The notes beneath the pieces were generated by a model. It was not told the DNA's origin. It searched no databases and worked only from the letters and a program-made list of their open reading frames with translations. The position numbers were made by a program, and so were the translations under genes. A stretch of 64,000 nucleotides of DNA, taken from IMG/VR virus record IMGVR_UViG_3300011934_000017, positions 62,001-126,000 of that record; one strand, given 5' to 3'. How positions within the stretch are numbered: position 1 is the first letter of the stretch; each line of letters begins with the position of its first letter. Below, in pieces: positions 25,083 to 45,579 of this stretch. The DNA comes from a virus.

Positions 25083-28000
25083 TTAGCTATAATCAACGCG
25101 GAAGGTAATCTCGCCAATACCGGGAAAGTCTGAACGATACAGGTACCAATCTTCATCGACACCGCCTATAGTGCGTGTCACTGTAAGAGGTCCGTAAGTT
25201 GAACCTATACCACCTGCTGGCCATGTTGCTCCATCCATACCGCCTGATAGACCCAGCGAAGGTTCTGTGAACGTAGCAGTTCCTAACGCCGCAGGATGCG
25301 CATAATAAATGTAATTGCTTCCTGTCGTTTCTGTAGTGAAAGAATTACCGGACGATGATGTAGACATAGTATCATTCAGATACGTGCCAAGTGAAGCAAA
25401 GTCACTTAATCCTTCTGGTCCAACACCATACATAGGAGCATACGAAGGTGCAGAGGGCGGAGGCGGTGGAGTAGGAGCGGCACTACCTGCTGTGATATTG
25501 ATAAGCTTAGTTGCTTCTACCGAATGCAAGCCGTCTTCATATCGCGCTTTAATCGTTATACTGGTACCGGTCGGTACGTTACCTATATAAAGCACACCAT
25601 CATCTTCGATACTCACATTAGGAATTATAGTTTGAACAGACCACTCGATAGATTCGTTCGGAAGCACAGTGCCTGTTCCAGGAGAAACAATGTCACCTAC
25701 ATAGAAAAGCTCCGTGTTGTATGACTCGAACGAATTAGCAGGCACAGAACTTTCACCTAGAATGATCAACGTTTGTAACGGTGAAGCTTCTGCGAGCAAT
25801 GTTACCTGCATTGTGTCTGTAGCGGTATGTCCGTCACACGCCCAGTCTGCCGTAATGTTAACAACCGTTGTCTGGTTGTTCATGGAACGCAAGAAACCAT
25901 TGCGATCTATAATAGCAACATCGGGCGATACATCGATACTCCAGTCATTCGAAACTGCCAGCTCTTGATTGCATCCGTTGTCAAACTCAATCATAAACAC
26001 GTATGAACCCATACGACTCACAGGAATCACGGACGGTCCTGAAATACGCGAACTAATAGGAACAGAAGGTCCCGGTCGATCATGCCTTTTTACTACAACA
26101 GGAAACTCTGCTACTTCGCGGAAATAACGCGCAACGACAATTACCAGTGTGTCCTCTTCAACAGAACGACCTTGCATTATGCCCGGACTAACGATATCAG
26201 CTTCAGCTTCTGGGTTATTCAGAGGATCGGGACTACGCACTGTCCAAACAGGTTCTACAAGCTCGTCGCTTCCATCTTCATACCAAGCCCGTGCCTCAAA
26301 AGTCACTCTTCGATTTTCAAGAACTTCTGAATCACCTAGAATGCGTAGACCTGTAATCAAGTTAACATCAGGTATGAGAACAATAGGTTTAGTCTGGACG
26401 TGTCTTTTAGCTCCGCTATCGAAGACAGCACGTATTTCAACAATGCCTGCATTCCCAGAAGTAAACGTTAGCTCACCTGCAGGTGTCATGGTAACACCGG
26501 GATACGAACCATTGAGTGACCACACAGGACTAACTTCTATCTCACGACCGTCAGAATAGCGAGCAAATGCACGATAGTTAGCGGCTATTCCTTGTCTTAC
26601 GTTCTCTTGCCCTACAATGTTTATGCTTTCGATGTTTATAGGCGTCGTGTATACCGAAACCACTTTCGACACAGTAATATCTAGCGCTCTAGCTGTTAGC
26701 TCTACGGAAATAGATGTGCTTACAGAACCTGTCGTGAAAACACCTGATTCTGATATGGAGAAACGATCTGACATCCACACAGGATCAACTTGAGTGGTAA
26801 CGCCGTTTGACCATTCGATAATAGCGACAAAACGATGATTGGAAAGCTCTACTACACTGCTTGGTCCTTGAATCGTTAACGTCTTAGGTGTTATATAGTC
26901 TCTCTTTATCTCTACGACTTTTACCGCAATATGTTTTTGTCCTTGGTGTTGATACGTAGCTTTCAGCTCAGCTAAATAATCGGCATCAGGAATACCAGCA
27001 GATGCTCTGCCGCCTTGATCTACATAAAGTCCAGGAGAAGAGGACTCCCATAGCGCAAGCACGTCTTCTTGCGAACCGTCTGAATAAAATACGTGAGCGC
27101 GATAGGTATGCGAAGTATTTTCAGAAAGTTCTGGAGGTCCGATTATATGAATGGAATCGACTTTGATGTTTGTACTGACGGCTTTTATAATAACAGGTCG
27201 AACCGACTTTAGATGATAGCTATCAGCAGTGACGTAGCTGGCTTCAACATACACCACTTTATCTTCTTCCGGATTCCCTGTAAAAACTTCGTAGCCTTTG
27301 ATTCCGGTCACGTAAGGCGAAAGCACTTTTATCGTTACGTCGTTGAGCGCTTTGGTAGTTCTGTCATCGAAGTAACCTTCTACAGTCACCTTGAAAGAAT
27401 TTCCACCTGACACAGAAGTCGGAGCGTTCAACAGTATGCTTTCAAGTACAGCGCCAGCACCTTTGACTATTACGGTTTTAGTGTTACTCATTCCACCGAA
27501 CGTCGATGTGATATTTACTGTGGTATCACGGTAAACAGGAGCGAATACTGCAACACCGCTCGCCGTGAACGACACAATATCAGGACGGTCTGTAGTCATC
27601 ACAGGAGAAGGAACGCGAACAAGTCTACGGCCTGCTGTACTTGGAGGAGCGGAGTCAAATTTCACGGAGAATGTATGAGAACCTACGCCCGGAAGTTGAG
27701 TACGATATATGTACCAAGTCTGAAGCTTTCCATCTACGCGGCGATACAAATACATGGGAAGAGGGCTGCTATCGCCTTCCCACTTCACTGTGTTGCTTGG
27801 GTTTTGAATAGTAGCGTAACCAAGATACGCAGGATAAGCGAAGTAGCCGTAATGCCCGGCCGGTACGTTAAGTGAAAAAGACGGTGAAGCGAGGCTAGAT
27901 ACACTGCTTGTTAAAAACGTGTTCACATCAGCATTGTTTTCAACAGGAGTATCGGCAGAGCCATATACAGGCATCGTGCTTGTCGTAGTGTATCCCGACC

Positions 28001-30989
28001 AAGCAGCTAAAGGTGCGGGAACACCTTTGACAGTACAAGGTACCGAGTCTCCAATAGACAGTCCAGGAGCATCAAAGAATATCTGAAAAGTGCTGTTTCC
28101 TATAGACGGCAGATCAGTACGATACAGATACCAAGGCGAAGGTACACCACCTACGTTCACGTTAACAAGCACAGGACCTGTAGAGAACTCAATAGAACCT
28201 TCAGGCCATGTAGCGCCATCCCAACCGCCTTCGATGCCTGTAGCTTTAGATACAAATCGAGCGAAGCCCATTGCAGCAGGATACGCAAACCAACCATATT
28301 TGTCAGTATCAACGTCGATTGTCAGGTCTTGATGACTTGTGGATGCTACAGGAGATAGATCGAGGATGTCAGACGCTTTCCACAAATTGTTCCCAGTACC
28401 GAATCTGGGATATCCATTCACAGTACATGATACAGAAGCAACGTAAGGTACTGACTTTGTACTCATTCTAGTTGGTGCAGACATAGAACCATGATCAAAT
28501 TCAGGTGCTGAACCCGTATCGCAAGAGTCCATTGTATACCCGACGGTTAGTCCTGCGTTCTCGAACGAAACACGAAACTCTTGATTACCTAGCGAAGGCC
28601 AATCAGTACGATACACATACCACTTAGATGTTAATGATCCTACAGTGTGCTCAATCAAAGCTGGACCGAAGCTAGTTCCAATGCTTCCATCTTCTTCCCA
28701 AGTAGCACCACCCCATCCTCCTACAAGATTGCTATTCACTTCAATGAATGTAGCTTGGCCCAAAGAGGCAGGATAAGAGAAGTATCCGTACTTTCCGTTT
28801 TCTACGTTGATTGAAAAAGTCTGATTGTCCGTAGAAGGCAGTTCGTTAGGTAAGACAGCAGGTGTACTTCCTTTCATTGAAGTCAAAGAACCAAAGCGCG
28901 GAAGGGCGTTCAAGTGACAAGGAAGAGAGGCGACAGAATCATCGACAGGTGCAGTAGGATCACCTTCAGTTGGAGGAAATGCAATTAGCGTGTCTACGCA
29001 TCTTCCAGCTTCGGGAAACTCTACTGAGAAACCTGTCTCAGGCATCGTATGTGTGTTAGTACGATGCAAGTACCAGTCATACAGTCTACCTGATATCTGT
29101 CGTTGAATAATTATCGGGCCGGTATTCGTACCTACAGAACCATCTACAGGCCAACTCGCACCGTTCCAAAGCTCTGTGTCACCGGTTGAAAGCTCAGTGA
29201 TTGTAGCAACACCTAACTCTACAGGGTATGCGAAGTATCCGTATTCATATTCGTCTAACTCACCCACTAACGAGGTGTTTTCAGTAGAACCCAGCACGAA
29301 ACCGTAGTCTTCCAAAGCTGTGTCTATGTCAACGTCGATAGGACCTAAAGTAAAAGTAGGATAGCCGCTTACGCAAGTCTCTTCCTCTTCGTCTTCATCA
29401 CCTTCTACAGGAAGCACCAGTCCTGGGTGTCCGAATGAAACATCGAACGTTTGCGATCCAATACCTGAAAAATCAGTACGATAGATAAACCATTCAACAG
29501 CAGTACCGCAGATATTACGAACGACTTTTATAGGTTCTTTACTGTCACCTACTTCACCGTCTGCCCAAGTAGCTCCTTCCCAGCCGCCTTCAAGACCTGA
29601 AGATGCTTCTACAAATCGTGCATACCCAAGGTCAACAGGATAAGCAAAGTAGCCATATTTACCTGAAGGCACGTCTACTGTGAAGCGACGATCATTATTG
29701 TCGGGAAACGAGTTGGGTAGAAATTCAATCTCTGCGTCTGTGTTTAATCCGTAGTTGAACGAACCATACTGTGGTGTCATGTTAGGCACGCAAGGCACAG
29801 TCACATCGTTATCATCATCAGGCTCTTCCGGTGCAGGTTCAGCAGACGGAGAAGAATGTTCGAATTTAACATCACAGGAGTTCTGAATGCCTGGGTTATC
29901 AAACTGAATTTCAAAAGTCGTTTCGTCTACTAGCTTGGCATCAGTACGATAGACGTACCAATCTTGGTCTTTGCCTGCTATGTTGATTACAGTCAGCTTA
30001 GGGCCGTTGTCTTCTAAGCCTTCCCAACCACCTTCAAGCTTTGAATCTTTTTCTATAAACAAGGCTTTTCCAAGAGCAGCAGGGAACGCGAAGAAAACAT
30101 ACTTTCCTCTACTAAAGGCTACAGTGGCATTGTTTGTTGTGTCCAGTTCCTCTGTGAGCACAGAAAAAGCGGATGCCGCTGTCATAGAAGGTGAGTTCGA
30201 ATACCCGTATCGCGGTGTGAGTAGGTCGTAACAATCACCAGAGTAAAGAAGTGCATCTGTATGAACAGGAAACGATGAACCCGAAACCACGCTGTCTGGT
30301 AGCTTGACTTGAACGTTGCGTAAAACTTCACCGCCTAAACCTATAGTAATGAAATCTATAGGGTAGAAGATGACTTTACCTGCAACTCCCAAAGATATCT
30401 GGGACTTCACCATGAAGTAAAATTCACGCACAACATGGTTAATAGGAGCAAACTCGAAATAAGCATCCATAAGACGATCAGACAGATTCTTTCCGACAGG
30501 TAAGATCATGTTAACGTCAGACGGGATCAGCTCCATACCAAGATCAACATGTGTAGTCTTGTACCAGTCGCCGCCCTCTTTAATCATGGGACCAGCAGGC
30601 TTTCGATAGAAATTTTCGTAGTCTTGAGTATATGTGTGGCTTACTTCTATGTCACGACCCAAAACGAACCTAACGCCTTTCACAAAGTCTTCCGTTCCAC
30701 TTTTTTCATGGATCAAAGACAGCATGTAGACAGACTTGGCTAGACGTTGAGCGTTGTGTCTAATCAAATCAGCAGGAATATCAAAGCCAAGTTGCTTGAT
30801 TGTACGCGCTATGATTTCAGGGTCTGTAGTTTCGACTATGTGGCGAATGTCTTCTATTTCACCGATAGGTTCACGAATCTGCTCCTGAATAACATCAGCC
30901 AGACCTTCCATGAACTCAGACCATGTAGGTTCGTTCGCAAAGAACTCTGGCTGAAGACTCGTTAAGTCGATTTTAGCTTTATCCGACAT
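25083..30989 (-). CDS. 1968-residue tail/baseplate protein with FAYP and Ig-like repeats
   Basis: The N-terminal ~190 residues resemble tail protein I-type baseplate proteins (ANEPTWSEFMEGLADVIQEQI, GFDIPADLIRHNAQ, a YMLSLIHEKSGT stretch). Seven copies of an ~85-residue repeat follow at about residues 283-366, 430-520, 570-660, 723-811, 886-971, 1040-1111 and 1885-1968, with the core YGYFAYP..LG.A.F, GGW.GATW and WY.YRTD...G...F.V.F. Between copies 6 and 7 are roughly six bacterial Ig-like repeats (I.I.G...V......Y.A...YSDG....V.P.W). The start overlaps the J-like gene's stop (TAATG), as in a baseplate operon. It is probably a long baseplate-anchored fibre or adhesin. Confidence 0.78.
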   Translation of the reverse strand: MSDKAKIDLTSLQPEFFANEPTWSEFMEGLADVIQEQIREPIGEIEDIRHIVETTDPEIIARTIKQLGFDIPADLIRHNAQRLAKSVYMLSLIHEKSGTEDFVKGVRFVLGRDIEVSHTYTQDYENFYRKPAGPMIKEGGDWYKTTHVDLGMELIPSDVNMILPVGKNLSDRLMDAYFEFAPINHVVREFYFMVKSQISLGVAGKVIFYPIDFITIGLGGEVLRNVQVKLPDSVVSGSSFPVHTDALLYSGDCYDLLTPRYGYSNSPSMTAASAFSVLTEELDTTNNATVAFSRGKYVFFAFPAALGKALFIEKDSKLEGGWEGLEDNGPKLTVINIAGKDQDWYVYRTDAKLVDETTFEIQFDNPGIQNSCDVKFEHSSPSAEPAPEEPDDDNDVTVPCVPNMTPQYGSFNYGLNTDAEIEFLPNSFPDNNDRRFTVDVPSGKYGYFAYPVDLGYARFVEASSGLEGGWEGATWADGEVGDSKEPIKVVRNICGTAVEWFIYRTDFSGIGSQTFDVSFGHPGLVLPVEGDEDEEEETCVSGYPTFTLGPIDVDIDTALEDYGFVLGSTENTSLVGELDEYEYGYFAYPVELGVATITELSTGDTELWNGASWPVDGSVGTNTGPIIIQRQISGRLYDWYLHRTNTHTMPETGFSVEFPEAGRCVDTLIAFPPTEGDPTAPVDDSVASLPCHLNALPRFGSLTSMKGSTPAVLPNELPSTDNQTFSINVENGKYGYFSYPASLGQATFIEVNSNLVGGWGGATWEEDGSIGTSFGPALIEHTVGSLTSKWYVYRTDWPSLGNQEFRVSFENAGLTVGYTMDSCDTGSAPEFDHGSMSAPTRMSTKSVPYVASVSCTVNGYPRFGTGNNLWKASDILDLSPVASTSHQDLTIDVDTDKYGWFAYPAAMGFARFVSKATGIEGGWDGATWPEGSIEFSTGPVLVNVNVGGVPSPWYLYRTDLPSIGNSTFQIFFDAPGLSIGDSVPCTVKGVPAPLAAWSGYTTTSTMPVYGSADTPVENNADVNTFLTSSVSSLASPSFSLNVPAGHYGYFAYPAYLGYATIQNPSNTVKWEGDSSPLPMYLYRRVDGKLQTWYIYRTQLPGVGSHTFSVKFDSAPPSTAGRRLVRVPSPVMTTDRPDIVSFTASGVAVFAPVYRDTTVNITSTFGGMSNTKTVIVKGAGAVLESILLNAPTSVSGGNSFKVTVEGYFDDRTTKALNDVTIKVLSPYVTGIKGYEVFTGNPEEDKVVYVEASYVTADSYHLKSVRPVIIKAVSTNIKVDSIHIIGPPELSENTSHTYRAHVFYSDGSQEDVLALWESSSPGLYVDQGGRASAGIPDADYLAELKATYQHQGQKHIAVKVVEIKRDYITPKTLTIQGPSSVVELSNHRFVAIIEWSNGVTTQVDPVWMSDRFSISESGVFTTGSVSTSISVELTARALDITVSKVVSVYTTPINIESINIVGQENVRQGIAANYRAFARYSDGREIEVSPVWSLNGSYPGVTMTPAGELTFTSGNAGIVEIRAVFDSGAKRHVQTKPIVLIPDVNLITGLRILGDSEVLENRRVTFEARAWYEDGSDELVEPVWTVRSPDPLNNPEAEADIVSPGIMQGRSVEEDTLVIVVARYFREVAEFPVVVKRHDRPGPSVPISSRISGPSVIPVSRMGSYVFMIEFDNGCNQELAVSNDWSIDVSPDVAIIDRNGFLRSMNNQTTVVNITADWACDGHTATDTMQVTLLAEASPLQTLIILGESSVPANSFESYNTELFYVGDIVSPGTGTVLPNESIEWSVQTIIPNVSIEDDGVLYIGNVPTGTSITIKARYEDGLHSVEATKLINITAGSAAPTPPPPPSAPSYAPMYGVGPEGLSDFASLGTYLNDTMSTSSSGNSFTTETTGSNYIYYAHPAALGTATFTEPSLGLSGGMDGATWPAGGIGSTYGPLTVTRTIGGVDEDWYLYRSDFPGIGEITFRVDYS

Positions 30990-32458
30990 TAGTAACTGCT
31001 CCTTACACCGAGAGAGCGCTCAGAATAAACAACATCAATAATAGGTTGCCCATCTAAAACAGCGTAATGTGTGCGATCTGGCATTAGAATGTCTTCTTCT
31101 GGGCTAGCCAGTACCACATAATCCACACCTTCGATCTTGCGAATAGCGTCCGTAATGTCAGACTGTGAAAGGCGACGTCCAAGTATTCCGGGCTTCTTTT
31201 GAAACAGCTTCAGAATATTCTCCATCGCCACAATTCGAATCTCACCGTCTTTCGCGCTTGGGACGATAGCAATCTTAATACGAACCTTGACGAAGACTTT
31301 AACAGGATTCCAAGTCTGCACGTCATACGCATCGTGCAAGTGTGGAATGAGCCATCGTGAAAACTGATTCCACGAGCTAGACTGCGGATTAGGATTAGCG
31401 CCACCAAACGTGTCCGACTCTTCTGGCAAAACACACATACGCATCATGTTCATCCAGCGAAGATCGTTTGGTGCAATATCTCTCTGACCTAAAGGCGAAC
31501 AGTCAGCAACACCTGGATAACGCATCACAGTAGCACGAATGTCGGCACCGCTAATCGCCCGACGCTTCGTTCGGAACATGTTAGGTGCAAACATTTTGTA
31601 GTACAGGGCACTCTTTTGATCCGAACCTCCAGCGATTGTAGTGATTGTTTCACCCTTTAGCTCGCTATCACTGCGAACACGTAAGGCAATACCAGGAAGA
31701 CCGCTATTGTCTGCGCTACCGTCTGTTGTGACATACCGAATGATCAACGTAGAATCTCGGTCAAGTATCTTACCGTTCTCTCCGTCTCCAAAGAAGAAAG
31801 ACGTATCCCCGTCCCGTGCGGTGCTTTCGAAGTAAATTGCCTCTTCACCGTGATGTTCAAATACAGCCTTATCAGTCGGTTCCCAAATCTGCGTGGTGCC
31901 CGTGTCGTTATTTTGCGTATACACAAGCACATCTTCAGACGAAACGATAAATCTAGGTTCATCCAAGTAAAACTCTCGCAACGCTACATCAGGATACGCT
32001 TTTAGATCAAAGCGCTTCTCTGCAACGTTGCCAGAGTAGAGGGATACGTTTGAAATAGTGGAACCCGGAGGAATAACGTACTGCTGGCGATTGAAAAACG
32101 TGCGACCAGATAGATCGAACATAGAGTACGGAGGAATGTACTTTGTGCGTGTCGAGTAGTTAGACACTTCGGCGACACAGGACGCACATGTTTTCCTAGA
32201 TATCTGGACACCCAACATGCGAGTGCCTGCAAAGATCGAGCTGTCACGCACAGCAGTCGGAAGAAAAGCTTCACGAAAAGCCATATCCAGATAAAACTGA
32301 TTTGATACATGCGAGCCTGCAAACGTGTCAAGAATGGTAGTACCTACAGAAGTAGGCATCATATCTACCCACGTGCGCTTCTGTTCAAGCTTACGCTGTA
32401 GCTCATTAAACAGAAGTTGGAAATCAGGTGTTACTTTGCTAATAGGTACGGAAGCCAT
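30989..32458 (-). CDS. Baseplate J/gp6-like wedge protein
   Basis: This 489-residue protein is of the Baseplate_J family type. It has TPDFQLLFNELQRKLEQKRTW at the start, a GTTILDTFAGSH motif, Ala/Gly-rich wedge segments, and FFFGDGENGKILDRDSTLIIRYVTTDGSADNSG, which matches the family's conserved G(D)G..G..P..G..I.V.Y..T.G. block. The product is expected to form part of the baseplate inner ring. It follows the gp25-like gene with a TAATG overlap and precedes the tail protein I-like gene, the canonical order. Confidence 0.85.
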   Translation of the reverse strand: MASVPISKVTPDFQLLFNELQRKLEQKRTWVDMMPTSVGTTILDTFAGSHVSNQFYLDMAFREAFLPTAVRDSSIFAGTRMLGVQISRKTCASCVAEVSNYSTRTKYIPPYSMFDLSGRTFFNRQQYVIPPGSTISNVSLYSGNVAEKRFDLKAYPDVALREFYLDEPRFIVSSEDVLVYTQNNDTGTTQIWEPTDKAVFEHHGEEAIYFESTARDGDTSFFFGDGENGKILDRDSTLIIRYVTTDGSADNSGLPGIALRVRSDSELKGETITTIAGGSDQKSALYYKMFAPNMFRTKRRAISGADIRATVMRYPGVADCSPLGQRDIAPNDLRWMNMMRMCVLPEESDTFGGANPNPQSSSWNQFSRWLIPHLHDAYDVQTWNPVKVFVKVRIKIAIVPSAKDGEIRIVAMENILKLFQKKPGILGRRLSQSDITDAIRKIEGVDYVVLASPEEDILMPDRTHYAVLDGQPIIDVVYSERSLGVRSSY

Positions 32459-32847
32459 TAACTAAATCCTCGCGCTAGGTTAAATTGAAAAGTGAATTGG
32501 CGAGCTTCAAGCTCTGGCGCCCTGTATCGAATGTTCACAAAATACTGACTGTTTTGCGGATCAGGAATAACGATGATTTGATCAAAGACAATTCGAAACT
32601 CACCATTGTCTTCTAAGGCACGTTCCATATCGTATTGAATGCGACTCGCTGTAACGTCGTCAATAGGTTCAAAAAGGTGCTTGCCTACATCGCTTCCTAA
32701 ACGCGGTCGAAACCACTTTGATCGCTTCGGTGTCTCGAAGATACAGGCAATATTTTGGTTAAGGCTGTGCTCATTCTTAACCAGTTCGTTCTGCGTTACA
32801 CCTGCATACAGGTTAACGTCTGAATATAAAACATCAATGATAGCCAT
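32458..32847 (-). CDS. gp25-like baseplate wedge protein
   Basis: The start is placed at ATG 32847 (MAIIDVLYSDVN), because the longer frame to 33006 would run through the PAAR gene in another frame and its extra residues are not protein-like. The 129-residue product has the family layout: DVNLYAG...ELVKNEHSLNQNIACIFETPKRSKWFRPRLGSD, LFEPIDD and a final ARQFTFQFNLARGF. gp25 is the lysozyme-fold wedge subunit that helps start sheath assembly. AGG lies upstream inside the end of the PAAR gene. Confidence 0.85.
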   Translation of the reverse strand: MAIIDVLYSDVNLYAGVTQNELVKNEHSLNQNIACIFETPKRSKWFRPRLGSDVGKHLFEPIDDVTASRIQYDMERALEDNGEFRIVFDQIIVIPDPQNSQYFVNIRYRAPELEARQFTFQFNLARGFS

Positions 32848-32849
32848 AA

Positions 32850-33140
32850 TTAACCTGCAAAAACGTCTGGAGAACCGGTAGCCGCACTGTCGCCACAGCC
32901 CATCATATCGCCGATTCTTTGTTTGTTGAGTTGATCCGCGTAGACAGAAGAGCTTCCTTGAACAGTGACAGGAACGTGACACGAAAAGCAGCAATGCACA
33001 ACCCACTTGTCAGTAAGCCGAACCTGCGCCATTTGATCTGTAAACACGGTAGTCGATGCGGTAGCAGGTCGTGTAGGTGGAAAGCACCCGTGTCCTGTAG
33101 ACATATCGATAGGAAGTCGCACACAAGGTATACCAGCCAT
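32850..33140 (-). CDS. PAAR-domain spike tip protein
   Basis: This 96-residue protein is rich in Cys and Gly. It shows a PAAR-like repeat pattern: STGHGCFPPTRPA, VFTDQMAQVRLTDKW, GSSSVYADQLNKQRIGD, and a closing CGDSAATGSPDVFAG. PAAR proteins bind a metal and sharpen the tip of contractile-tail spikes. The start has AAGGAG seven bases upstream. It is the first minus-strand gene after the divergent intergenic region and leads the distal baseplate operon. Confidence 0.85.
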   Translation of the reverse strand: MAGIPCVRLPIDMSTGHGCFPPTRPATASTTVFTDQMAQVRLTDKWVVHCCFSCHVPVTVQGSSSVYADQLNKQRIGDMMGCGDSAATGSPDVFAG

Positions 33141-33160
33141 AATTTATCTCCTTTGATCTG

Positions 33161-33189
33161 TTGAAATTATTACGACTAAACTGTAAATA
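33161..33189 (+). promoter_or_regulatory. Putative promoter of the thymidylate synthase operon
   Basis: TTGAAA (33161-33166) and TAAATA (33184-33189) are 17 bases apart and lie 41 bases before the start codon. The -35 matches the sigma-70 consensus at five of six positions. The -10 is weak at three of six, but TAAATA also resembles phage late-promoter cores. Confidence 0.4.
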
Positions 33190-33215
33190 AGTGTCGTTAT
33201 TATCGGTTATTTACA
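33182..33215. promoter_or_regulatory. Inverted repeat in the divergent intergenic region
   Basis: TGTAAATAA (33182-33190) and TTATTTACA (33207-33215) form perfect 9-base arms with a 16-base spacer. They sit between the divergent PAAR and thymidylate synthase genes. The repeat could be an operator or a pair of opposed promoter cores. Confidence 0.5.
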
Positions 33216-33229
33216 CAAAAAGGTAACGT

Positions 33230-34369: not shown

Positions 34370-34379
34370 AGGCAGCACT

Positions 34380-35589: not shown

Positions 35590-37308
35590 TTATGCACCTT
35601 TTACAGAATCGATAGCTTTCTGAATCTTAGCGGGAGGACGAATACCTAGGTTCGTATAGAACTCTGCTAAGATTTCAGGACTAATATAGTTTCCGATCGC
35701 CGTGCTTGTTGTGACTTTTTCTCCGCTGGTATGACCAAGCTCATTACCTACATCCATAATCTGTTCTTCTACCCACTGGTTTACCTCTCGCTCAGTCCAA
35801 TCTCCGCCTTTCTTGAACGGACTCTTCTTCAGAATGTCTGCGACCATCTTAGTAGCTTTAGATGTTCTGAATTTATGAACAGTGAAGTCGGGATGACCAC
35901 CAAGCGTTCTAAGATACTTAGTGACTAGCGTACTCGTAGGTGTCTTTTGGACACCGCCTTGACCTTTCACCAAAAATATACTATCAGTAGCTTTTTTACC
36001 TTTCATGTACCGCTTAAGGTTCTTAACCAGCAGCTTTAATGCAGGGGAGCTATTATAATGAATAACGTGGTGTTGTTGGGCACCTGTATTACTGGACTGA
36101 GACTTACCTTTGTATTTAACGATGACCTTGGTTTCGTCTATCTTGACGTGACGAACTTGAAGCTGGGTAGTGGCGTAGGTGGTTTCACCTTTTGACGCGG
36201 TACCTGGGTTACCTGGACGTGCAGAAGTAGTGTATATAAACTCCAGGATAGTAGCAAGCTTTCCATTCAATGTGTCCGGCTGCTTCATATCCAAGCGCCA
36301 TTTACGCGCCATTGCAGGTAGCTTGGGCATAGTTGCAGTAACGGCGGCAAACTTTTTATTTTTGGAAGCTGCACGATAATCTTCGGTATAAGCTTTAGAA
36401 GAATCTGTTGCACCGAAAGGAGTGAATCGGCAGACATACGTGTTATCTAGTTTCGGGTCGTACTCTGGGTTCATACGAACTTCACCGGAAGGTGCCGTTA
36501 GAAGTTTCTTGCCTTTGGTTGTATAGAACTTGCCCGCGTCATCTATCATACCGATAAAATCTTTAGGCAAAGTGTTAGGGATGCCTTCATCTTTTAAAGC
36601 TTGAACAACTTCTCCAACAGGTAAGTACGGCTTACCGCTGCTGCGGACCAAAGATTTCAAACGAGTCTTCATTGTGTTTCGAAGCGTTGTTTGCAGCTTC
36701 AAGTATCGAACATGGTCGTCCAGTTTCTTACCTTTAACCTTAGCTATTTTTTGCCACTGTTGAAGAGTGTCTAGCGGAAGTGTTAGACCCGGAGTACCTG
36801 CATACTTCTCTACTAGAGTTTCTAACTCAGAAGTCTCGCCCGAAATGTCATCATGCTCTTCGATAAACATTTCATTAACATCTGGATCTTGAAAGCGTGT
36901 CACAACCTTAGAAAGCCTAGACGACGCAGCACCACTTCCCTTCGTTTGTATGAGGCGCAAATCATTAAGAAGAGCAAGGTCTTCTTTAGTTAGATCCAGC
37001 TCTTCCTTTAGATCAGGTGTCTTACTTTTTAAATCCATAACAACGTCGGTTATAGATTGCTCAAAGTCTTCATCTTCGTTAGGATCCGCACCAGCGACTA
37101 ACTGCTTATGCGCTTTTGTAAGCAGGGTTTTCTTGAGCTTAAAGCGCTTTACGAACGGTTCCATTCGAGCCATCCAGAGATTTACCTTGCGCATATAAGA
37201 AGGTTTATACTCAAACTCCTTAGACATTACAAGAGACATTATAACTTTCATATAAGCCTCAGCACTGTCCTTTTCTACTGCACTAAGTGAAACGAAACCT
37301 CGAAGCAT
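35590..37308 (-). CDS. DNA topoisomerase IB
   Basis: This 572-residue type IB enzyme relaxes supercoils by a transient 3'-phosphotyrosine link. The C-terminal half carries the family set: Arg in TTSARPGNPG with TTQLQVRHVKI after it, the Lys loop VKYKGKSQSS, Arg in VHKFRTSKAT, and LGHTS followed by NYISPEI with the predicted active Tyr541. The N-terminal ~180 residues are helical and unlike the viral or bacterial enzymes of ~310-350 residues. It is longer than poxvirus-type enzymes, so a virion- or phage-specific N-terminal region is likely. ATG 37308. Confidence 0.82.
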   Translation of the reverse strand: MLRGFVSLSAVEKDSAEAYMKVIMSLVMSKEFEYKPSYMRKVNLWMARMEPFVKRFKLKKTLLTKAHKQLVAGADPNEDEDFEQSITDVVMDLKSKTPDLKEELDLTKEDLALLNDLRLIQTKGSGAASSRLSKVVTRFQDPDVNEMFIEEHDDISGETSELETLVEKYAGTPGLTLPLDTLQQWQKIAKVKGKKLDDHVRYLKLQTTLRNTMKTRLKSLVRSSGKPYLPVGEVVQALKDEGIPNTLPKDFIGMIDDAGKFYTTKGKKLLTAPSGEVRMNPEYDPKLDNTYVCRFTPFGATDSSKAYTEDYRAASKNKKFAAVTATMPKLPAMARKWRLDMKQPDTLNGKLATILEFIYTTSARPGNPGTASKGETTYATTQLQVRHVKIDETKVIVKYKGKSQSSNTGAQQHHVIHYNSSPALKLLVKNLKRYMKGKKATDSIFLVKGQGGVQKTPTSTLVTKYLRTLGGHPDFTVHKFRTSKATKMVADILKKSPFKKGGDWTEREVNQWVEEQIMDVGNELGHTSGEKVTTSTAIGNYISPEILAEFYTNLGIRPPAKIQKAIDSVKGA

Positions 37309-37318
37309 TTTAATTCTC

Positions 37319-37747: not shown

Positions 37748-37755
37748 TACGAATC

Positions 37756-38816: not shown

Positions 38817-38845
38817 AACTTTTCCACGCTGAAACAATAACATAA

Positions 38846-38851
38846 ATTATA
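38846..38851 (-). promoter_or_regulatory. TATAAT element upstream of the MmcB-like gene
   Basis: TATAAT lies on the minus strand, 30 bases before the ATG and just after a terminator. No clear -35 is seen. Confidence 0.4.
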
Positions 38852-38874
38852 TCGAATTTTGAGGCTGGAGACCG

Positions 38875-38908
38875 AAAAAAGGGCTAGAGTCGAATGACCC
38901 CAGCCCTT
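38875..38908 (-). terminator. Rho-independent terminator
   Basis: On the minus strand AAGGGCT (38902-38908) pairs with AGCCCTT (38879-38885), followed by TTTTTT. It ends transcription after the basic coiled-coil gene. Confidence 0.8.
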
Positions 38909-38926
38909 GAGTATAAAGCTTCTGCG

Positions 38927-39256
38927 TTATTTACCCAATGAGGTTCTACGTGCAACCTTTTCAGCCATACGCTTTTTACGCGGAGCTTCGGAAGCTTCTT
39001 GGCCAATGTCTGCCAGCTTGTCGTTGATATCGTCCACAGCATCACTCAGTTTTCGATATTCAGGAAGCAATTTTCTAATCGCTGCCTTATCTCCTTTATC
39101 TTCGGCTCTATCCATTTTAAGCTTAATGCCGTTCAATTTGGACATCAAAGGCTTTTTCTTTTCTTTCAGCTTGTCAGCTTTTGGGCCTTTAGCTTTGCGC
39201 CTTAGACCAGCATAAGGATCGTCTTGGCTTTTGCTTGTAGAAATAAATACTTGCAT
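38927..39256 (-). CDS. Basic coiled-coil protein
   Basis: This 109-residue protein is very rich in Lys, Arg, Ala and Asp. After a short beta start (MQVFISTSKSQDDPYAG), like the start of the neighbouring GNAT protein (MKIFISSASDKP), it has heptad-like helices (KLNGIKLKMDRAEDKGD, RKLSDAVDDINDKLADI). It may bind nucleic acid or a partner. A terminator follows its stop. The family is not recognised. Confidence 0.62.
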   Translation of the reverse strand: MQVFISTSKSQDDPYAGLRRKAKGPKADKLKEKKKPLMSKLNGIKLKMDRAEDKGDKAAIRKLLPEYRKLSDAVDDINDKLADIGQEASEAPRKKRMAEKVARRTSLGK

Positions 39257-39266
39257 TGTGTTTCTC

Positions 39267-39647
39267 CTAGAATTTTTTCAGATATACTGCGGAATTTTCT
39301 TTGCGTATCTGCAAAGCATCGTTAATAGTGCCACCTTGAACTAAACGAAAGCCGTTTTTCCAAAACAAGCGAACGCTAGTATCACTACTACATTGCGCTC
39401 CAATATCACGAGGATAAACGGAGAGCACTTCTTTCAGAAGCTTATCTGCTACACCCTTGTTACGCATTTCAGGGCTTACGAAAGTCTCAACCACAGAATA
39501 CTTAGCAGGAGCATACGGCGGCTTTATGGCTACCACAATTCTGCTTTTAGGGTCTTCATCGTGCTCGAATACATGACCCTTTACATTATCGAACAGGTGT
39601 ATCATTTTTGCAGGTTTGTCGGAAGCACTGGATATGAAAATTTTCAT
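39267..39647 (-). CDS. GNAT-like acetyltransferase
   Basis: This 126-residue protein has the GNAT core: ETFVSPEMRNKGVADKLLKEVLSVYP matches the acetyl-CoA pyrophosphate-binding motif (R-x-x-G-x-A), and SSDTSVRLFWKNGFRLVQGG matches the C-terminal conserved strand/helix. It is short for the family (~140-150), with a compact N terminus. The substrate is unknown; phage GNATs can modify host proteins. It starts after the nuclease gene in the accessory block. Confidence 0.72.
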   Translation of the reverse strand: MKIFISSASDKPAKMIHLFDNVKGHVFEHDEDPKSRIVVAIKPPYAPAKYSVVETFVSPEMRNKGVADKLLKEVLSVYPRDIGAQCSSDTSVRLFWKNGFRLVQGGTINDALQIRKENSAVYLKKF

Positions 39648-39656
39648 ATGATTCTC

Positions 39657-40166
39657 TTATGTTTCAAACAGACCCACGCGCTCTTCTACAGGGTTCAGTT
39701 CAGGCATTATAGAAAGCAACTCTTCTTTCTTCATGTAAGGCCAATTTTTAGGCATGCGCAGTCTATTACCTTTCTTGTCCATTAAAAGCAGCATGAACCT
39801 GAAACCCTTTTTATGGCAAGCAATAGCCTTAGCGCAAGTCATACTCCAACCACGCTGCTTATTTCCATGGAGTCCTAACGTGTGTGTAGACTTTACTTCT
39901 ACCACGAGACGTTTTGAAATTACAAATAGGTCTGGATAGTAAGTACGCATTTTCTTCCGGTACTTATAACGAATGTTCAATGCGTTTCCAAACTCTTCTT
40001 CACATCGAATATCAGAAGCTTCAAGTCCCAGTTCGTCCGTTAAGTAGCGTATGGCTTGCGGCTCATAGCCTTGAACCTTTACGTGTCTGTCACCTATTGT
40101 GGTTTCATACTGTCTAAACTTTTTTGTCTTTCTTCGCCGTCGCTTATGTTTGTGTGCGGAAAGCAT
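39657..40166 (-). CDS. PD-(D/E)xK nuclease
   Basis: This 169-residue protein has a basic N terminus (KHKRRRRKTKKF) and a VQGYEPQAIRYL helix. The nuclease core is YYPDLFVISKRLVVEVKST, with Pro78-Asp79 and Glu90-x-Lys92, and a following helix (MTCAKAIACHKKG). This arrangement resembles small phage endonucleases that use 'VQGYE...' as a pre-core signature. DNA target unknown: it could be a homing-, repair- or host-DNA-degrading enzyme. No partner methylase is seen. Confidence 0.7.
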   Translation of the reverse strand: MLSAHKHKRRRRKTKKFRQYETTIGDRHVKVQGYEPQAIRYLTDELGLEASDIRCEEEFGNALNIRYKYRKKMRTYYPDLFVISKRLVVEVKSTHTLGLHGNKQRGWSMTCAKAIACHKKGFRFMLLLMDKKGNRLRMPKNWPYMKKEELLSIMPELNPVEERVGLFET

Positions 40167-40173
40167 GGTACAC

Positions 40174-40419
40174 CTATAGATCGAGAGAAATCTGGACCAT
40201 GTGAGAAGATGATTCGGAAGCAGTTTCGTATCCTGACATTCGCTTCCAAATTCCCATCACATAGGCATAAAACTCGTTAGAGTCTAGCTCAAGTCCTTTT
40301 TTCTCCGCTATAGTCTTAGCGCGTTCCCAAAGAGCTTCTAGCTCTTCAAAAGCCTCTTCCTCTTCGATATCGTGGCGTTCAGCGTAGGTTTTGGCAAAAG
40401 AACGAATAACGGCAGGCAT
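40174..40419 (-). CDS. Small acidic helical protein
   Basis: This 81-residue protein is Glu-rich and helical (ERHDIEEEEAFEELEALWERAK) with a YAYVMGIWKRM segment. The first ~30 residues resemble a short helical module seen in phage proteins of unknown role. A TATAAT-like element lies 31 bases before its ATG. It is followed directly by the nuclease gene. Function unknown. Confidence 0.58.
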   Translation of the reverse strand: MPAVIRSFAKTYAERHDIEEEEAFEELEALWERAKTIAEKKGLELDSNEFYAYVMGIWKRMSGYETASESSSHMVQISLDL

Positions 40420-40449
40420 AAGTAAACTCCTAAAGTGCTCTTAGGGTAA

Positions 40450-40455
40450 ATTATA
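40450..40455 (-). promoter_or_regulatory. TATAAT element before the small acidic gene
   Basis: TATAAT on the minus strand lies 31 bases upstream of ATG 40419. TTGAAT sits 15 bases further upstream, a short spacer, so it is a weak promoter candidate. Confidence 0.35.
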
Positions 40456-40472
40456 TGCCTACCGTCGAATAT

Positions 40473-40949
40473 TCAAACAGTTTCTTCTAGCTTATCTAGC
40501 ATAGGAGATAGCGCAGAAGGCAGTTTCTTTCGTGCTTTTTCAATAGTGAACCACTTTCGTTGGCGTCGTTCGGCTTCTGGCCATTCTGTCAGTCGTTCTT
40601 TTACTTCCATTGCATACACATCAACTTTCTGCGGACGACCTGTAGCACCCTTGATATAAGCATACTTTCCAAGCTTCTTTTTAGCTTTGCCTAGAAGACC
40701 TGCCTCTTCGTATGCTTCTGTCTCAGCAGACTTGCGCTTGGTCATATCGGGCTCTACGCCGCCTTTGGGAAGTCCCCACTTTTCAGAGTGGGAGCTGGAG
40801 ACCAGTAGAACTTGAAGCTCTCCATGTTTGTTGAAACGATAGGGAATAACGCCCGATTGCTTGCGAGGCTTTCGAGACGCATTCTTTCTTCGAATCTTTT
40901 TAGGCAGTTTTTGAGTAGGCCCTGATGCTAATGAAACAGTGATTTCCAT
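40473..40949 (-). CDS. Nudix hydrolase
   Basis: This 158-residue protein has a basic N terminus followed by a Nudix fold: VIPYRFNKHGELQVLLVSS, WGLPKGGVEP, and a Nudix box with TEAYEEAGLLG (the box Glu pair intact, while the usual Arg and first Glu are replaced). The same substitutions occur in the diphosphoinositol-phosphatase-like subfamily with the PKG...EAYEEAG pattern and a late WPE..ER.R.WF block, all seen here. The substrate is unknown. It follows the cell-wall hydrolase by ten bases. Confidence 0.78.
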   Translation of the reverse strand: MEITVSLASGPTQKLPKKIRRKNASRKPRKQSGVIPYRFNKHGELQVLLVSSSHSEKWGLPKGGVEPDMTKRKSAETEAYEEAGLLGKAKKKLGKYAYIKGATGRPQKVDVYAMEVKERLTEWPEAERRQRKWFTIEKARKKLPSALSPMLDKLEETV

Positions 40950-40959
40950 CGTATTATCC

Positions 40960-41457
40960 TCACCAGTTTTGAACTACACTTGCTACAGCGTAGCGTGGTT
41001 TACCGGGTCGTTTGAAAAATTCGTGATTACCGATCTTGCCTAAAAATTCGTATTCAAAATACCAATCTGGCAGCAAATGATCTGGAATGACGCTTGGGTT
41101 TAAGTAATGAGTAGCGCCTTTGACAGGCGAGTCTGGTAGACCGTCGTAAAGGAAGCTATAGACTATTCGCGCTACTGCAAGCTCCTCTTCCTCTGAAGGG
41201 TCCCCAATAGGATGACCTTCAATAGTCCAAGAAAACTGATAGGGCTGGTATATCACTTTAGACACACCTTCAGGAAAGTCTGTTCTTAGCGATCTTTCGT
41301 GAACAACTTCAAGAACAGCCAGTTGGCCCAAAAGAGGTTCACCACGCGCCTCATGTAATACGTTTTCGATCAGGTTAGCGTGTGAAGGATATTGCATATC
41401 GGAATTATGAAGATCAACAACAACCGCCATAGGAAGTAGCAAGGATTCGAGTAACAT
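40960..41457 (-). CDS. SleB-type cell-wall hydrolase
   Basis: This 165-residue hydrolase of the SleB/CwlJ family (Hydrolase_2) cleaves peptidoglycan, probably as a glycosylase or amidase. It has HEARGE (35-40) with the likely catalytic Glu36, QLAVLEVVHERS, VIYQPYQFSW, KGATHYLNP and IGNHEFF. The hydrophobic N terminus (MLLESLLLPMAVVV) may be a signal-anchor, so it could be an endolysin released late. An extended -10 element lies ~85 bases upstream. It could instead be a virion-bound lysin. Confidence 0.78.
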   Translation of the reverse strand: MLLESLLLPMAVVVDLHNSDMQYPSHANLIENVLHEARGEPLLGQLAVLEVVHERSLRTDFPEGVSKVIYQPYQFSWTIEGHPIGDPSEEEELAVARIVYSFLYDGLPDSPVKGATHYLNPSVIPDHLLPDWYFEYEFLGKIGNHEFFKRPGKPRYAVASVVQNW

Positions 41458-41542
41458 AAAAGCTCCTAGATAAAATGTGCAAACTTTTCAAGTTTAACAA
41501 AGTGCGTAACCACTTTTCTGAATACATCAGGGTTACTCTTTC

Positions 41543-41551
41543 ATTATATCA
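41543..41551 (-). promoter_or_regulatory. Extended -10 promoter before the hydrolase
   Basis: TGATATAAT on the minus strand is an exact extended -10 (TG-n-TATAAT), about 86 bases before ATG 41457. No clear -35 is needed for this class. The leader contains a GTAACC/GGTTAC inverted repeat (41506-41511 and 41531-41536). Confidence 0.5.
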
Positions 41552-41568
41552 TAGGTAGCTTTTAAAAT

Positions 41569-43086
41569 CTAGTCCCAGCGCTTGTGTAGCGCTTCTATCA
41601 GTCCCTTCTCTATTGCCTTGTCCGTCATAACAATAATATCGCCGAACGCTTCCAAGCATAGGTCCACATATCTTTGGTACTCGATACGGCCTTCGTAGGC
41701 GTTCTTATCATAACCTTTCGATAACCACTGGATAGCCTCTTCGCCGTCCAATTTGCGTAAAAGCATTTCCTTACGCAACATCTTAAAGTGGTCGCTTTTG
41801 AGTAAGTGACGATCTTCAATAGAGGCCCACTTTTTCTCAGCAGCCTGATACTCTGCCTGTGAAAGCTTATCCCGCGCTATGTCCAAAGCGCGAAGCATGG
41901 CATTACCATCAGCGTGTCCAGAAATGCGGGCAAAAGACAAAATACCGTGCATAAACCGGTTCAGATTCTGATCTATGATGACTGTGGCTGCATCTATAGC
42001 TCCTTTAATTTCAGGGCGAATATCCCCACGCACTGGAGTCAAGTCGCCTTCGTCCTTAATCGTCATGTTTTTAACAAGGGATTCTACATGCCTTTTAGGG
42101 AACAGTAAAAGACGCCGATTTTTGCTAATAGCGTTTCGGGCAGTCAGTTTAAGTCCTTCGAACGCATAAGAGCTGGTTGTAGTGCCATACTTGTAGCTTA
42201 TGAAAGACATTTTTACGTCTATACGATAGCGAAGTTCTTCCAAAAGATCAGGAATATTTTTCTTGAAATCTTTGGACGAATGGAGAACCAAATACTTATC
42301 ACCTTCAAGTTCCAATAACATTGTAGGTTCGGGACTAGCTAAGGTCGCTTCTGTTAGATCGTACTCCTTAGTGTCAATCTTATACCCGTGCTTATTGAGC
42401 CGGTGCATATCTTCCAAGAACAACGGGCCGTGACCTGCTTGATTGTACAGTGCGTTTCCATCTTCGTAGAAACGCTTATAGTGAAGCAAGTGTATCATTT
42501 CATGCAATACAACTTCGCACACACGCGGAATATCGGTCAAAGCGTGTTTAGCCAGCTTCAATGTGTAGTTAAGCTGACCGCCTTTCATCTTTAACATGGC
42601 TTGTCCGGAAAACTTGGACGCTTCTGAAAGCAGAAAGCGCACTTGGGTCGGACACTCATTCTTGAAATGTAGCTTATTGAAATAGTTATAGAGCCTAGCT
42701 ATGTCCTGCTTCTTAGGCGGCATAGGAATACTGGGAAAGAATTTCTCAGGTAAACCAGCGTCAGGATTGTGAACACGTTCACCTGTCTTAACGTCTTTGC
42801 CTCCAATGCCTGCTTTCAGACTTACACCCTTAACACGTCCCGAATATCCTGTAGAAAGACGAATAATCTTTTTGACTTCTGCTTCGGTCATAGTGAAGAC
42901 AATGCTTGGATCCGCAAGAACCGCGAGCTTCAGCTTGCCTGCATAAGTACGAATGCCATACTTCATCTTAGGTGCTAAGTCTAAATCATATTTCGGATTG
43001 TGATTTTCAAACGAAAGAGTTTTCTTACCTTGATATTGGTACCACTGGTATTTATCAATGGATACAGCAGCTAATGAAGTAAACAT
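41569..43086 (-). CDS. SprT-like zinc metallopeptidase with cryptic N-terminal domain
   Basis: This 505-residue protein has a SprT-like zinc site at residues 195-199 (VVLHEMIHLLHY), with a third ligand His219 in AGHGPLF. The N-terminal ~100 residues share a cryptic domain with the protein at 51677-52564: YQWYQYQGKK.L, MKYGI, T(E)AEVKKIIRLSTGYSGRV and GIGGKDVK. The C-terminal ~270 residues hold a basic helical region (LTARNAISKNRRLLLFPKRH) and are unrecognised. Target unknown. It follows the HNLG gene by 10 bases, so it may be virion-associated; this is inference. Confidence 0.72.
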   Translation of the reverse strand: MFTSLAAVSIDKYQWYQYQGKKTLSFENHNPKYDLDLAPKMKYGIRTYAGKLKLAVLADPSIVFTMTEAEVKKIIRLSTGYSGRVKGVSLKAGIGGKDVKTGERVHNPDAGLPEKFFPSIPMPPKKQDIARLYNYFNKLHFKNECPTQVRFLLSEASKFSGQAMLKMKGGQLNYTLKLAKHALTDIPRVCEVVLHEMIHLLHYKRFYEDGNALYNQAGHGPLFLEDMHRLNKHGYKIDTKEYDLTEATLASPEPTMLLELEGDKYLVLHSSKDFKKNIPDLLEELRYRIDVKMSFISYKYGTTTSSYAFEGLKLTARNAISKNRRLLLFPKRHVESLVKNMTIKDEGDLTPVRGDIRPEIKGAIDAATVIIDQNLNRFMHGILSFARISGHADGNAMLRALDIARDKLSQAEYQAAEKKWASIEDRHLLKSDHFKMLRKEMLLRKLDGEEAIQWLSKGYDKNAYEGRIEYQRYVDLCLEAFGDIIVMTDKAIEKGLIEALHKRWD

Positions 43087-43096
43087 GGCGTACTCC

Positions 43097-43525
43097 TTAA
43101 ACGAAAATCACGTTTGCGACTCCCGCCTGAGGAGTATGAAAACTAATAGTAACAGCATTAAAATCTACGGAAAGAGTGTCGTACAAAACACCTTCAAAAT
43201 TTTCATCTAGGATTGTAACAACGACATTCCTACTGTTCTTGTCATGCTCTATTACCCATTCAGAAGCAGGTTCGCCCATTACAAAAGAGACACCTTCCGC
43301 AGTACCTGTAGCACCTCCTCCAAGCTCAACAAAGTCAGCGAGACTGATTGAGGACAGTGCGCCGTCTACCATAGCGAGCATCTGTCCGTCTTCCAGTACA
43401 AGACCTGATAACTGTCTAGGTCCCGCACCGCGTCTCACTATGACAGATTCTTTTGGAGCATCCTCTTCTAAATAAGGACGTTTGGGAAGCTCTAGTTGTA
43501 TAAACGACTCAAATTGGTTTGCCAT
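43097..43525 (-). CDS. Small tail protein with C-terminal HNLG domain
   Basis: This 142-residue protein has an N-terminal ~75 residues with no clear module, then residues ~85-142 forming one HNLG domain in a variant form (EWVIEHDKNSRNVVVTILDE...VTISFHTPQAGVA). Its ATG overlaps the upstream stop (TAATG), so it is coupled to the 684-residue tail protein. It is probably part of the same complex. Confidence 0.66.
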   Translation of the reverse strand: MANQFESFIQLELPKRPYLEEDAPKESVIVRRGAGPRQLSGLVLEDGQMLAMVDGALSSISLADFVELGGGATGTAEGVSFVMGEPASEWVIEHDKNSRNVVVTILDENFEGVLYDTLSVDFNAVTISFHTPQAGVANVIFV

Positions 43526-45579
43526 TATGATAGCTCCTCTATATCTAGTTCAAGTGTTCCCGAAGTGTTAGCGCTGGCAAAATCAACGTCGCTCAACCAA
43601 ATATGAGTACCCATGGAAGCCTTGTAATTACCTTCGCTGTCTACCACAGAATAAGAAGCGCGAGCATCCCGAGTGTCGGTTCTTAACGTTAAAAGAGAAT
43701 CGGAGCCAGCATAGTTTACACGAGTATTTGTGACGTTGTAAACGGGAACGCCGATAGGAGCAATGCGAGAAAGTGCGGGCATGGTTATCGTTGTCTTCGT
43801 AAAACCAGCAACAGCATAACTTAGATCAGGTTTTTCAGTTACAGGCATACCAGAAAGACCTTGTGCTGCTAGGTCCGAAAATACTGTAACACCACGAACA
43901 TCAGAGTTCGTGATTTTCAAGTTTCGAGACCAAACTGTATCGCTTTCTTTAGTCCAAACTCCTGTCCAAGAACCTACAGGAGGCGTTAAGAATGGAGAAG
44001 CATGTAATTCTTGATCAAACTCAAGTCTTACCTTATAATCAATCCCATCGGGCGAAGAGCGTAGGTGTGGAATTGGCGTAGCTTCACCTACTTCAAGTCC
44101 TGGATTTTGGAAAGACACTAAAAAGGGCGAAATAATTCCTTGAAAGTCTGTGCGATACACATACCAATTTTCACCGTTCTTAGATAGAGGAGCGGGACCA
44201 GTCGTTGAGCCTACAGAACCATCAGAAGGCCATGTTGCCCCATCCCAACCACCAACACTTCCCGTAGATAGATCAATAAACGTCGCTCGGCCTAACGCAG
44301 CAGGATAAGCAAAATATCCGTAACCCGCCGGAGCTTCTAAGAAGAAGTCCTGATCGTTTGTAGAGGAAAGTGTCTGTGCTAAAGAATCGATACCGGAGAC
44401 AGAAAGATTAGGAGACGTAGATGCTCCATAAACAGGAAGACTGGATATCTTCTGAGAACTGCCTCGAAGCACAGAATTTTCTATAACGAGAGACAGCATT
44501 GAAGGTGCGATACTGGAGATAGGAATATCAAAGACCCCTTCAAAGTAGGTATCGTTAGAGTCTTTCCAAGCACGAATTGTTATGCCTCCGGAAAGACTAT
44601 AAGTTGCCACATCCACAGTCAACGTGCGCGAAGAAAGAATAGCAGAAGGAGAACCGTCAAAAGTACCATGATCGAAAGAAAACTCGCTACGCTCTGCGTT
44701 CAGGTACGAAATAGTAGCCAAACACGTATCGTTAAGACCCAGAGCATCCTTGTTGTTACTGAAAGCTGAAAGTGTCACGGTCACTTGCGGAACTGTTTGA
44801 TCAAGGCGTATTGGATCCGACTCGAAGCTAGTTCCTTTTGTTCCTAATTGATTTTCAGCATACAGTGAGATCCTATTTAAACCAGAAGCATTGGATGCCT
44901 CAACAACACCGCTAAAGACTCTGTATCCATCAGAAGAACTATTAGCGGCACCTAAAGTTAAAGTATAGTTGCGAGAAGTGGCAGCACCTAAGTTTAAAGC
45001 TTTTATTTCGACAGCAGAGTTCTCAACAGAACCCTCGACAGAAATAAGGTCGCCAGCCTTAACTGCGGTCTGTACTCCGGGAAAAGCTGTCACGCTCAAG
45101 CTTGTAATAACAGGTCCGCTACCTTCGACGCTAATACTAATAGAAGCTTCAGTCCCTTGAGAGGACTTTAACGTTAAAGTACCACTTTCAGACATTTCAA
45201 TAGGTACGCTACCTGTAAACGAGTTCGGACTTCCTTCTACCCCTTCTACATTTGCGTAGCTTAATAAAACATCATTCATCCATACCGACACTTCAGGTGC
45301 ATCAAACGCGATTTTACTATCGCAGATAAAACCTACAGTAATAAAAGCAGTGTCCGAAACACAACTGTTGATTATTTTGTTAGGCGGTGTGGTGTCTTTA
45401 TACTGTTTGTTACCTACATTGCCTTCAGAAGTGGGCATAACGCTAGTGATGAATATTGGACGCTGTGAGGTATCGTTAAATACTTTATCCAAGTCCTCTT
45501 TTCGAATAGCATGATCGGGTTCCGTAGGAGCATAATGCAGACGTAAGAAGCCTAATGCTTCCAAATTGTGTGCTTTCAC
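43525..45579 (-). CDS. Tail protein with one FAYP domain, GTG start
   Basis: The start is placed at GTG 45577-45579 with GGAG eight bases upstream. A start at 45672 would lie before a terminator and overlap the upstream gene. The 684-residue protein begins VKAHNLEALGFLRLHYAPTEPDHAIRKEDLD, a fibre-type N terminus. It has Ig-like beta repeats (TSLSVTAFPGVQTAV) and one copy of the FAYP domain at ~411-493 (YGYFAYPAALGRATF...GGWDGATWP...WYVYRTDF). It is probably a baseplate-linked fibre related to the 1968-residue protein. Confidence 0.7.
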   Translation of the reverse strand: MKAHNLEALGFLRLHYAPTEPDHAIRKEDLDKVFNDTSQRPIFITSVMPTSEGNVGNKQYKDTTPPNKIINSCVSDTAFITVGFICDSKIAFDAPEVSVWMNDVLLSYANVEGVEGSPNSFTGSVPIEMSESGTLTLKSSQGTEASISISVEGSGPVITSLSVTAFPGVQTAVKAGDLISVEGSVENSAVEIKALNLGAATSRNYTLTLGAANSSSDGYRVFSGVVEASNASGLNRISLYAENQLGTKGTSFESDPIRLDQTVPQVTVTLSAFSNNKDALGLNDTCLATISYLNAERSEFSFDHGTFDGSPSAILSSRTLTVDVATYSLSGGITIRAWKDSNDTYFEGVFDIPISSIAPSMLSLVIENSVLRGSSQKISSLPVYGASTSPNLSVSGIDSLAQTLSSTNDQDFFLEAPAGYGYFAYPAALGRATFIDLSTGSVGGWDGATWPSDGSVGSTTGPAPLSKNGENWYVYRTDFQGIISPFLVSFQNPGLEVGEATPIPHLRSSPDGIDYKVRLEFDQELHASPFLTPPVGSWTGVWTKESDTVWSRNLKITNSDVRGVTVFSDLAAQGLSGMPVTEKPDLSYAVAGFTKTTITMPALSRIAPIGVPVYNVTNTRVNYAGSDSLLTLRTDTRDARASYSVVDSEGNYKASMGTHIWLSDVDFASANTSGTLELDIEELS

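Follow-up and report, generated by a model that had tools for sequence, protein, structure and literature searches.

The repeat described here is a genuine domain family, unnamed until now, of which eleven distinct copies are distributed over five proteins of a single PaBG-like jumbo myophage. The expansion of the domain in this phage is striking, and adhesion is the most likely function of the domain. The analysed window, a stretch of 64,000 nucleotides, corresponds to bases 62001-126000 of a 220,237-base IMG/VR virus record and holds two genes of the family, P0001 and P0002, both on the minus strand. HMMs built on seven copies and used to find the eighth recovered all copies, with E-values from 3.8e-24 to 1.5e-40, whereas 1000 shuffles per copy reached at best 0.025-0.43; the repeat is therefore real, far beyond chance. 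These results bear out the first-pass annotation in placing seven copies in a 1968-residue protein and one in a 684-residue protein. Its total of eight copies did not stand, since the search of the whole record added three outside the window, where a six-frame scan gave zero copies beyond the eight; reversed translations of the window and of related loci gave zero domain matches. The unit had also been drawn too short, at ~85 residues. The extent that is homologous and confidently folded is 110-124 residues, starting with P-x-[YF]-G (the P.YG motif) ~40 residues ahead of YGYFAYP and ending with F-x-V-x-F, and the earlier core lies within its C-terminal two thirds. Pairwise identity among the window copies is 25-47%; across 38 sequences from various proteins and phages, P49, G53, G70 and R102 never vary, and W68, W73, W98 and Y101 hardly do. 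The features of the window are as follows.

25083..30989, minus strand: P0001, Ig-rich fibre-like tail protein of 1968 aa, putatively anchored at the baseplate (phrog_14098, E 2.3e-287)
30345..30989, minus strand: N-terminal domain of P0001, residues 1-215, baseplate-anchor-like (kept in all relatives; synteny; weak structural lead)
29889..30218, minus strand: copy 1, residues 258-367 (HMM, copy alignment)
29421..29783, minus strand: copy 2, residues 403-523 (HMM, copy alignment, AF2 model mf99805ca2fa7)
29004..29375, minus strand: copy 3, residues 539-662 (HMM, copy alignment)
28551..28910, minus strand: copy 4, residues 694-813 (HMM, copy alignment)
28065..28424, minus strand: copy 5, residues 856-975 (HMM, copy alignment)
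27648..27983, minus strand: copy 6, residues 1003-1114, most of the GGWDGATW loop missing (HMM, copy alignment)
25446..27647, minus strand: Ig-like block of P0001, residues 1115-1848, between copies 6 and 7 (phmmer against the genome's own Ig fibre)
25086..25445, minus strand: copy 7, residues 1849-1968, exact C-terminal cap (HMM, copy alignment)
30989..32458, minus strand: gp6-like baseplate wedge gene, immediately upstream of P0001 (phrog_219, E 3.9e-65)
32458..33006, minus strand: gp25-like baseplate wedge gene (phrog_261, E 4.1e-26)
43525..45579, minus strand: P0002, second tail-associated protein (its PaBG homologue PaBG_00093 matches a virion band; PMC7412058 Table 1)
44098..44448, minus strand: domain copy in P0002 (HMM, copy alignment, ortholog comparison)

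In Lupandier phages, the ortholog of P0001 is the 'SinH'/tail protein (PHROG 14098), and the profile of this family matches P0001 over its full length in 11 stretches. The copies had been described as split by Ig-like repeats, which holds between copies 6 and 7 only; copies 1-6 (residues 258-1114) stand in direct tandem with linkers of ~15-42 residues. The intervening block is similar to the genome's own Ig fibre (phmmer E 1.9e-28), which in turn matches Pfam Big_2. Relatives of P0001 carry the annotation 'Ig-like virion protein'. Of the seven, copy 7 is the one retained by PaBG, NCTB and the Dickeya/Erwinia phages. Conservation is highest at the N-terminus (residues 1-215), with 72% identity to the ortholog in the related locus L009 and 26-45% to other relatives; towards the same L009 protein, the Ig block reaches 54% and copies 1-6 35-50%. 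The order of a gp25-like gene, a gp6-like gene and a P0001 homologue is also found in PaBG, Lu11, HRDY3 and Dickeya phages, and because this order after the wedge genes recurs, we infer that P0001 is anchored at the baseplate through its N-terminus. The AF2 model of this N-terminal domain is of low confidence (pLDDT 49.5), and in Foldseek the top three hits to it all come from the baseplates of contractile systems; a PDB profile search with the same region returned one insignificant match and nothing more. The tail-protein setting that had been proposed for these genes is consistent with PHROG 14098, with the wedge-gene neighbours and with the virion bands of PaBG discussed below.

The domain is predicted to fold autonomously as a ~115-residue beta domain of tailed-phage virions. 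AlphaFold2, run on copy 2 with 38 sequences, gave a confident model (pLDDT 94.2, pTM 0.88) composed mostly of beta strands with short helices, in agreement with the compact beta fold suggested at first. The absence of a named family was likewise upheld: Pfam gave zero families for the eight copies at E up to 10 and, for nine relatives, a single weak Rib match under its cut-off, with BACON (PF13004) unmatched; NCBIfam and PDB sequence searches, the latter with a single protein and with a profile, returned zero credible matches. Foldseek against the PDB gave nothing under E 0.3 (best E 0.34; TM at most 0.38 among the matches listed), and assignment to a CBM, an Ig domain, a jelly roll or another known fold was rejected on this basis. 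As regards Big_2 and other bacterial Ig-like domains, the repeat unit showed neither a Pfam match nor an Ig fold in Foldseek against the PDB. Among the predicted viral structures of BFVD, there were 26 matches at E at or below 0.001, with E down to 2e-12. They comprise PaBG proteins (TM 0.92, 0.79 and 0.67), Erwinia and Dickeya tail proteins and, more remotely, tail-fibre, collagen-repeat and crAss-like tail proteins, the TM of these relatives being 0.6-0.9 overall. A profile-profile link (95% probability, E 2e-8) was also found to a shorter YYAYP domain carried by smaller phage contigs (L013/L019-L021).

Each of the three copies outside the window forms the C-terminus of a fibre-like protein. 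One belongs to an Ig-like long fibre that spans the record ends, with a frame of 1506 aa to its C-terminus (L066), and the two others end shorter proteins, one of 182 aa and one lying in an open frame of 266 aa. The long-fibre copy is seen again at 2330-2650 of the record; since it is found twice, the record ends overlap. A related contig (G370, comprising L009/L010) carries the same set of eleven copies, and another (G372) a five-copy array; four copies occur in three proteins of PaBG, and other phages have two or three. The domain is recurrent in PaBG-like ('Lupandier') jumbo phages, with 1 to 7 copies per protein, and it lies at the extreme C-terminus of fibre-like proteins in G370, PaBG, NCTB and the JA29 and AD1 phages; a near-standalone version exists in PaBG as a 139-residue protein. 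At the evolutionary level, the seven-copy array is old, with its positions individually maintained: in the tree, array positions 1, 2, 3, 5, 6 and 7 and the P0002 copy each pair with their L009 counterpart, while position 4 is unpaired and yet has its best identity to position 4 of L009. Homogenisation of the array through recent duplication was considered and rejected, since most positions pair with their L009 counterparts.

The location of the domain on particles can be read from the structural proteome of PaBG, determined by mass spectrometry, in which gene product 215 is a 'long tail fibre' of 159,716 Da (PMC7412058 Table 1). PaBG_00215, which computes to 159,812 Da, has the domain as its end, and the domain is therefore part of a fibre in the virions of a cultured relative; membership of a tail fibre is accordingly observed through this PaBG homologue, not through the window phage itself. 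The same table contains a 'tail assembly protein' of 54,891.94 Da, numbered 94 (PMC7412058 Table 1), which was paired by mass and name with the P0002 homologue PaBG_00093 (computed 54,891 Da), so that P0002 falls in a virion protein family. No P0001 homologue is present among the 14 PaBG virion bands (PMC7412058). 'Tail sheath' labels on P0002 homologues look like database propagation. The copy in P0002 is inserted cleanly and in frame: both orthologs, from PaBG and NCTB, align on either flank and have no copy. Given this clean presence and absence, the confident fold and the standalone PaBG version, the domain is a mobile module.

A single bacterial occurrence was found. In a Gammaproteobacteria metagenome bin (L070), a 1488-aa secreted-looking protein carries one copy of the domain together with two Lcl_C domains, HYR, bacterial-surface Ig-like domains and a C-terminal hydrophobic segment. 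A tyrosine-recombinase-like gene adjoins the gene of this protein. This was the only one of 43 loci from a DNA-pattern search of bacterial genomes to have the domain, and the others appear to be fortuitous hits in different reading frames. When the class and the order around the genome of L070 were surveyed (369 and 41 genomes), no second bacterial case came up, and a plasmid collection gave no domain match.

On balance, we lean towards the proposal that the domain is an adhesin-like module, placed on the baseplate fibre and on tail-fibre tips, that holds the host. The six-copy tandem array and the C-terminal cap would be borne by a long Ig-like protein with its N-terminus at the baseplate, and the N-terminal domain and Ig-like spacers would keep the units away from the virion; further sites of display would be the insert in P0002 and the terminal domains of the long tail fibre and of two short fibre-like proteins. 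Many weakly binding units, together with the fibre tips, may keep the particle at the host envelope until attachment becomes irreversible. Surface binding, avidity and a ligand are what we infer here, and avidity is plausible. This proposal is supported by the C-terminal placement of the domain, the Ig-like stalks, the copy expansion and the copy in a bacterial surface protein, as well as by the PaBG long tail fibre with the domain in the virion and the tail-fibre relatives in BFVD. It also draws on the faster change of copies 1-6 relative to the anchor and to the Ig block, a habit of receptor-facing phage parts. However, divergence faster than that of the anchor is expected of plain spacers too, as the intermediate identity of the Ig block illustrates, and array positions conserved in two phages suit a scaffold as well as binding, while the strongly constant motifs resemble positions of the core or fold. 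The main rival is accordingly that the copies are passive beta domains which fix the length of fibres or decorate the tail, binding being located elsewhere, and we consider it unlikely, if worth weighing seriously. The conservation of the seven-copy array position by position in two phages, the constancy of the motif residues, the heavy intermixing of copies with Ig-like domains and the dispensability of the P0002 insert, which orthologs do without, would all suit such a role, for which BACON offers a precedent, a domain named for carbohydrate binding and found by structure to be a linker (PMC6949934). Against it, the domain is terminal in most other proteins, including at the tip of the long tail fibre, a standalone version exists in PaBG, and copies 1-6 are more divergent than the Ig block. 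To our knowledge, spacers are seldom terminal.

The first-pass annotation had taken the constant Trp, Tyr, Arg and Gly positions to suggest an aromatic surface, such as a carbohydrate-binding site. In such a scheme, the Trp and Tyr residues would form an aromatic surface and the array would confer avidity for LPS or capsule, to which the predicted beta fold, the conserved aromatics, the tandem array and the fibre tips would all be suited. The comparison of the copy 2 model with known structures gave no likeness to carbohydrate-binding modules, CBM11 reaching E 0.36-1.4 and TM at most 0.27 in Foldseek against the PDB, and Pfam gave no CBM match. In addition, the aromatics are constant over divergent copies and in phages of different hosts, which speaks against a glycan-specific site; constancy at 25-47% identity and in Pseudomonas, Dickeya and Erwinia phages would be expected no less of residues that define the fold than of a host-specific site, and we regard the carbohydrate-binding function as improbable. 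The presence of the domain in several virion-type proteins of one phage, with its constant motifs always kept, could also reflect a module for docking or oligomerisation, with fibres joined to other tail proteins through one shared socket. This role in virion assembly seems very improbable, as its C-terminal site is opposite to the apparent N-terminal anchor of P0001, and seven copies in that protein and one in a bacterial surface protein are a misfit with a single socket. Returning to the adhesin-like module, a bolder version, which we find rather doubtful, is that of a new adhesin fold family without a solved relative, a common but so far overlooked beta domain, in which, for PaBG-like jumbo phages, the eleven copies per genome would form a multivalent, position-specialised receptor array, each copy perhaps recognising a different host structure, and be traded with bacterial surface proteins.

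The family provides a well-delimited domain, worthy of a name, for large genes labelled 'tail protein' or 'hypothetical' in jumbo and other tailed phages, and, since its model is confident yet has no PDB counterpart, it is well suited to structural work. The presence or absence of the copy in P0002 and copy numbers of 1, 2, 5 and 7 are natural comparisons for relating multivalency to adsorption strength or host range. Should the domain prove adhesive, a single HMM would flag candidate receptor-binding tips in many phages that are now without annotated ones.

The domain family itself is new, but tandem beta domains in tail fibres are already known, for example the crAss-BACON arrays (BACON, PF13004). 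In crAss-like phages, up to eight tandem Ig-sized beta domains occur in a tail-associated protein, with an own clade per array position and with copies known in bacterial surface proteins too (PMC6949934). The P0001 array resembles them in all three respects, and differs in that Pfam BACON is unmatched, the motifs and the phage group are others, and no relative has been solved. Tentaclins are long adhesin-like phage proteins that combine Ig domains with a C-type lectin subject to DGR hypermutation (PMC10743442); P0001 shares with them its long adhesin-like build and the mixing of Ig domains with a putative binding domain. Identity with such a diversity-generating C-lectin was set aside, the binding domain being different and no C-type lectin being seen here. 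Big_2-type Ig-like domains are beta repeats that neighbour the domain in shared proteins, with no sequence or structure likeness to it found. The YYAYP domain and, in BFVD, the unannotated C-termini of phage tail-fibre, collagen-repeat and crAss-like tail proteins have a common predicted fold with it (TM 0.6-0.9), although in YYAYP domains the GGWDGATW loop is largely missing and they are found singly, at the C-terminus; neither a name nor an experimental test for these relatives was found in the sources searched. The closest known entity is PHROG 14098, the 'tail protein' of PaBG, Lu11, NCTB and Dickeya-Erwinia phages, of which P0001 is a full-length member, C-terminal copy included. This cluster groups whole proteins and describes no domains, and its relatives carry 1-2 copies, compared with seven in the window phage and in L009.

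One and the same copy of the domain, with its gene, is present at either end of the 220-kb record of the virus (L065, the locus at one end, 2330-2650; L066, at the other). The ends therefore overlap by a direct repeat, and the virus genome is probably circular or terminally redundant. In L065, a 236-residue protein rich in HDHD/THDHDxxYA repeats (2705-3415) has the long fibre on one side and the short fibre-like proteins on the other. The phage-type domain also lies within a bacterial surface-type protein, encoded in a Gammaproteobacteria metagenome bin (L070, 3474-7940), whose gene is adjoined by a tyrosine-recombinase-like gene; a transfer of the domain between phage and host is possible.

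Further features of the window are the following:
48281-51613, minus: portal protein gene with intein (Pfam Intein_splicing, LAGLIDADG_3)
35590-37308, minus: topoisomerase IB-core protein (PF01028, E 1.9e-16)
41569-43086, minus: SprT-like metallopeptidase with KMPT-N domain

The intein, which bears a LAGLIDADG-type homing endonuclease domain, is matched at portal protein residues about 418-847. The topoisomerase-like protein contains the catalytic core of DNA topoisomerase I of the eukaryotic type. The SprT-like gene is close to that of P0002, a tail-associated protein with one domain copy, and a SprT-like gene is likewise located in the corresponding neighbourhood of the related cultured jumbo phage PaBG.
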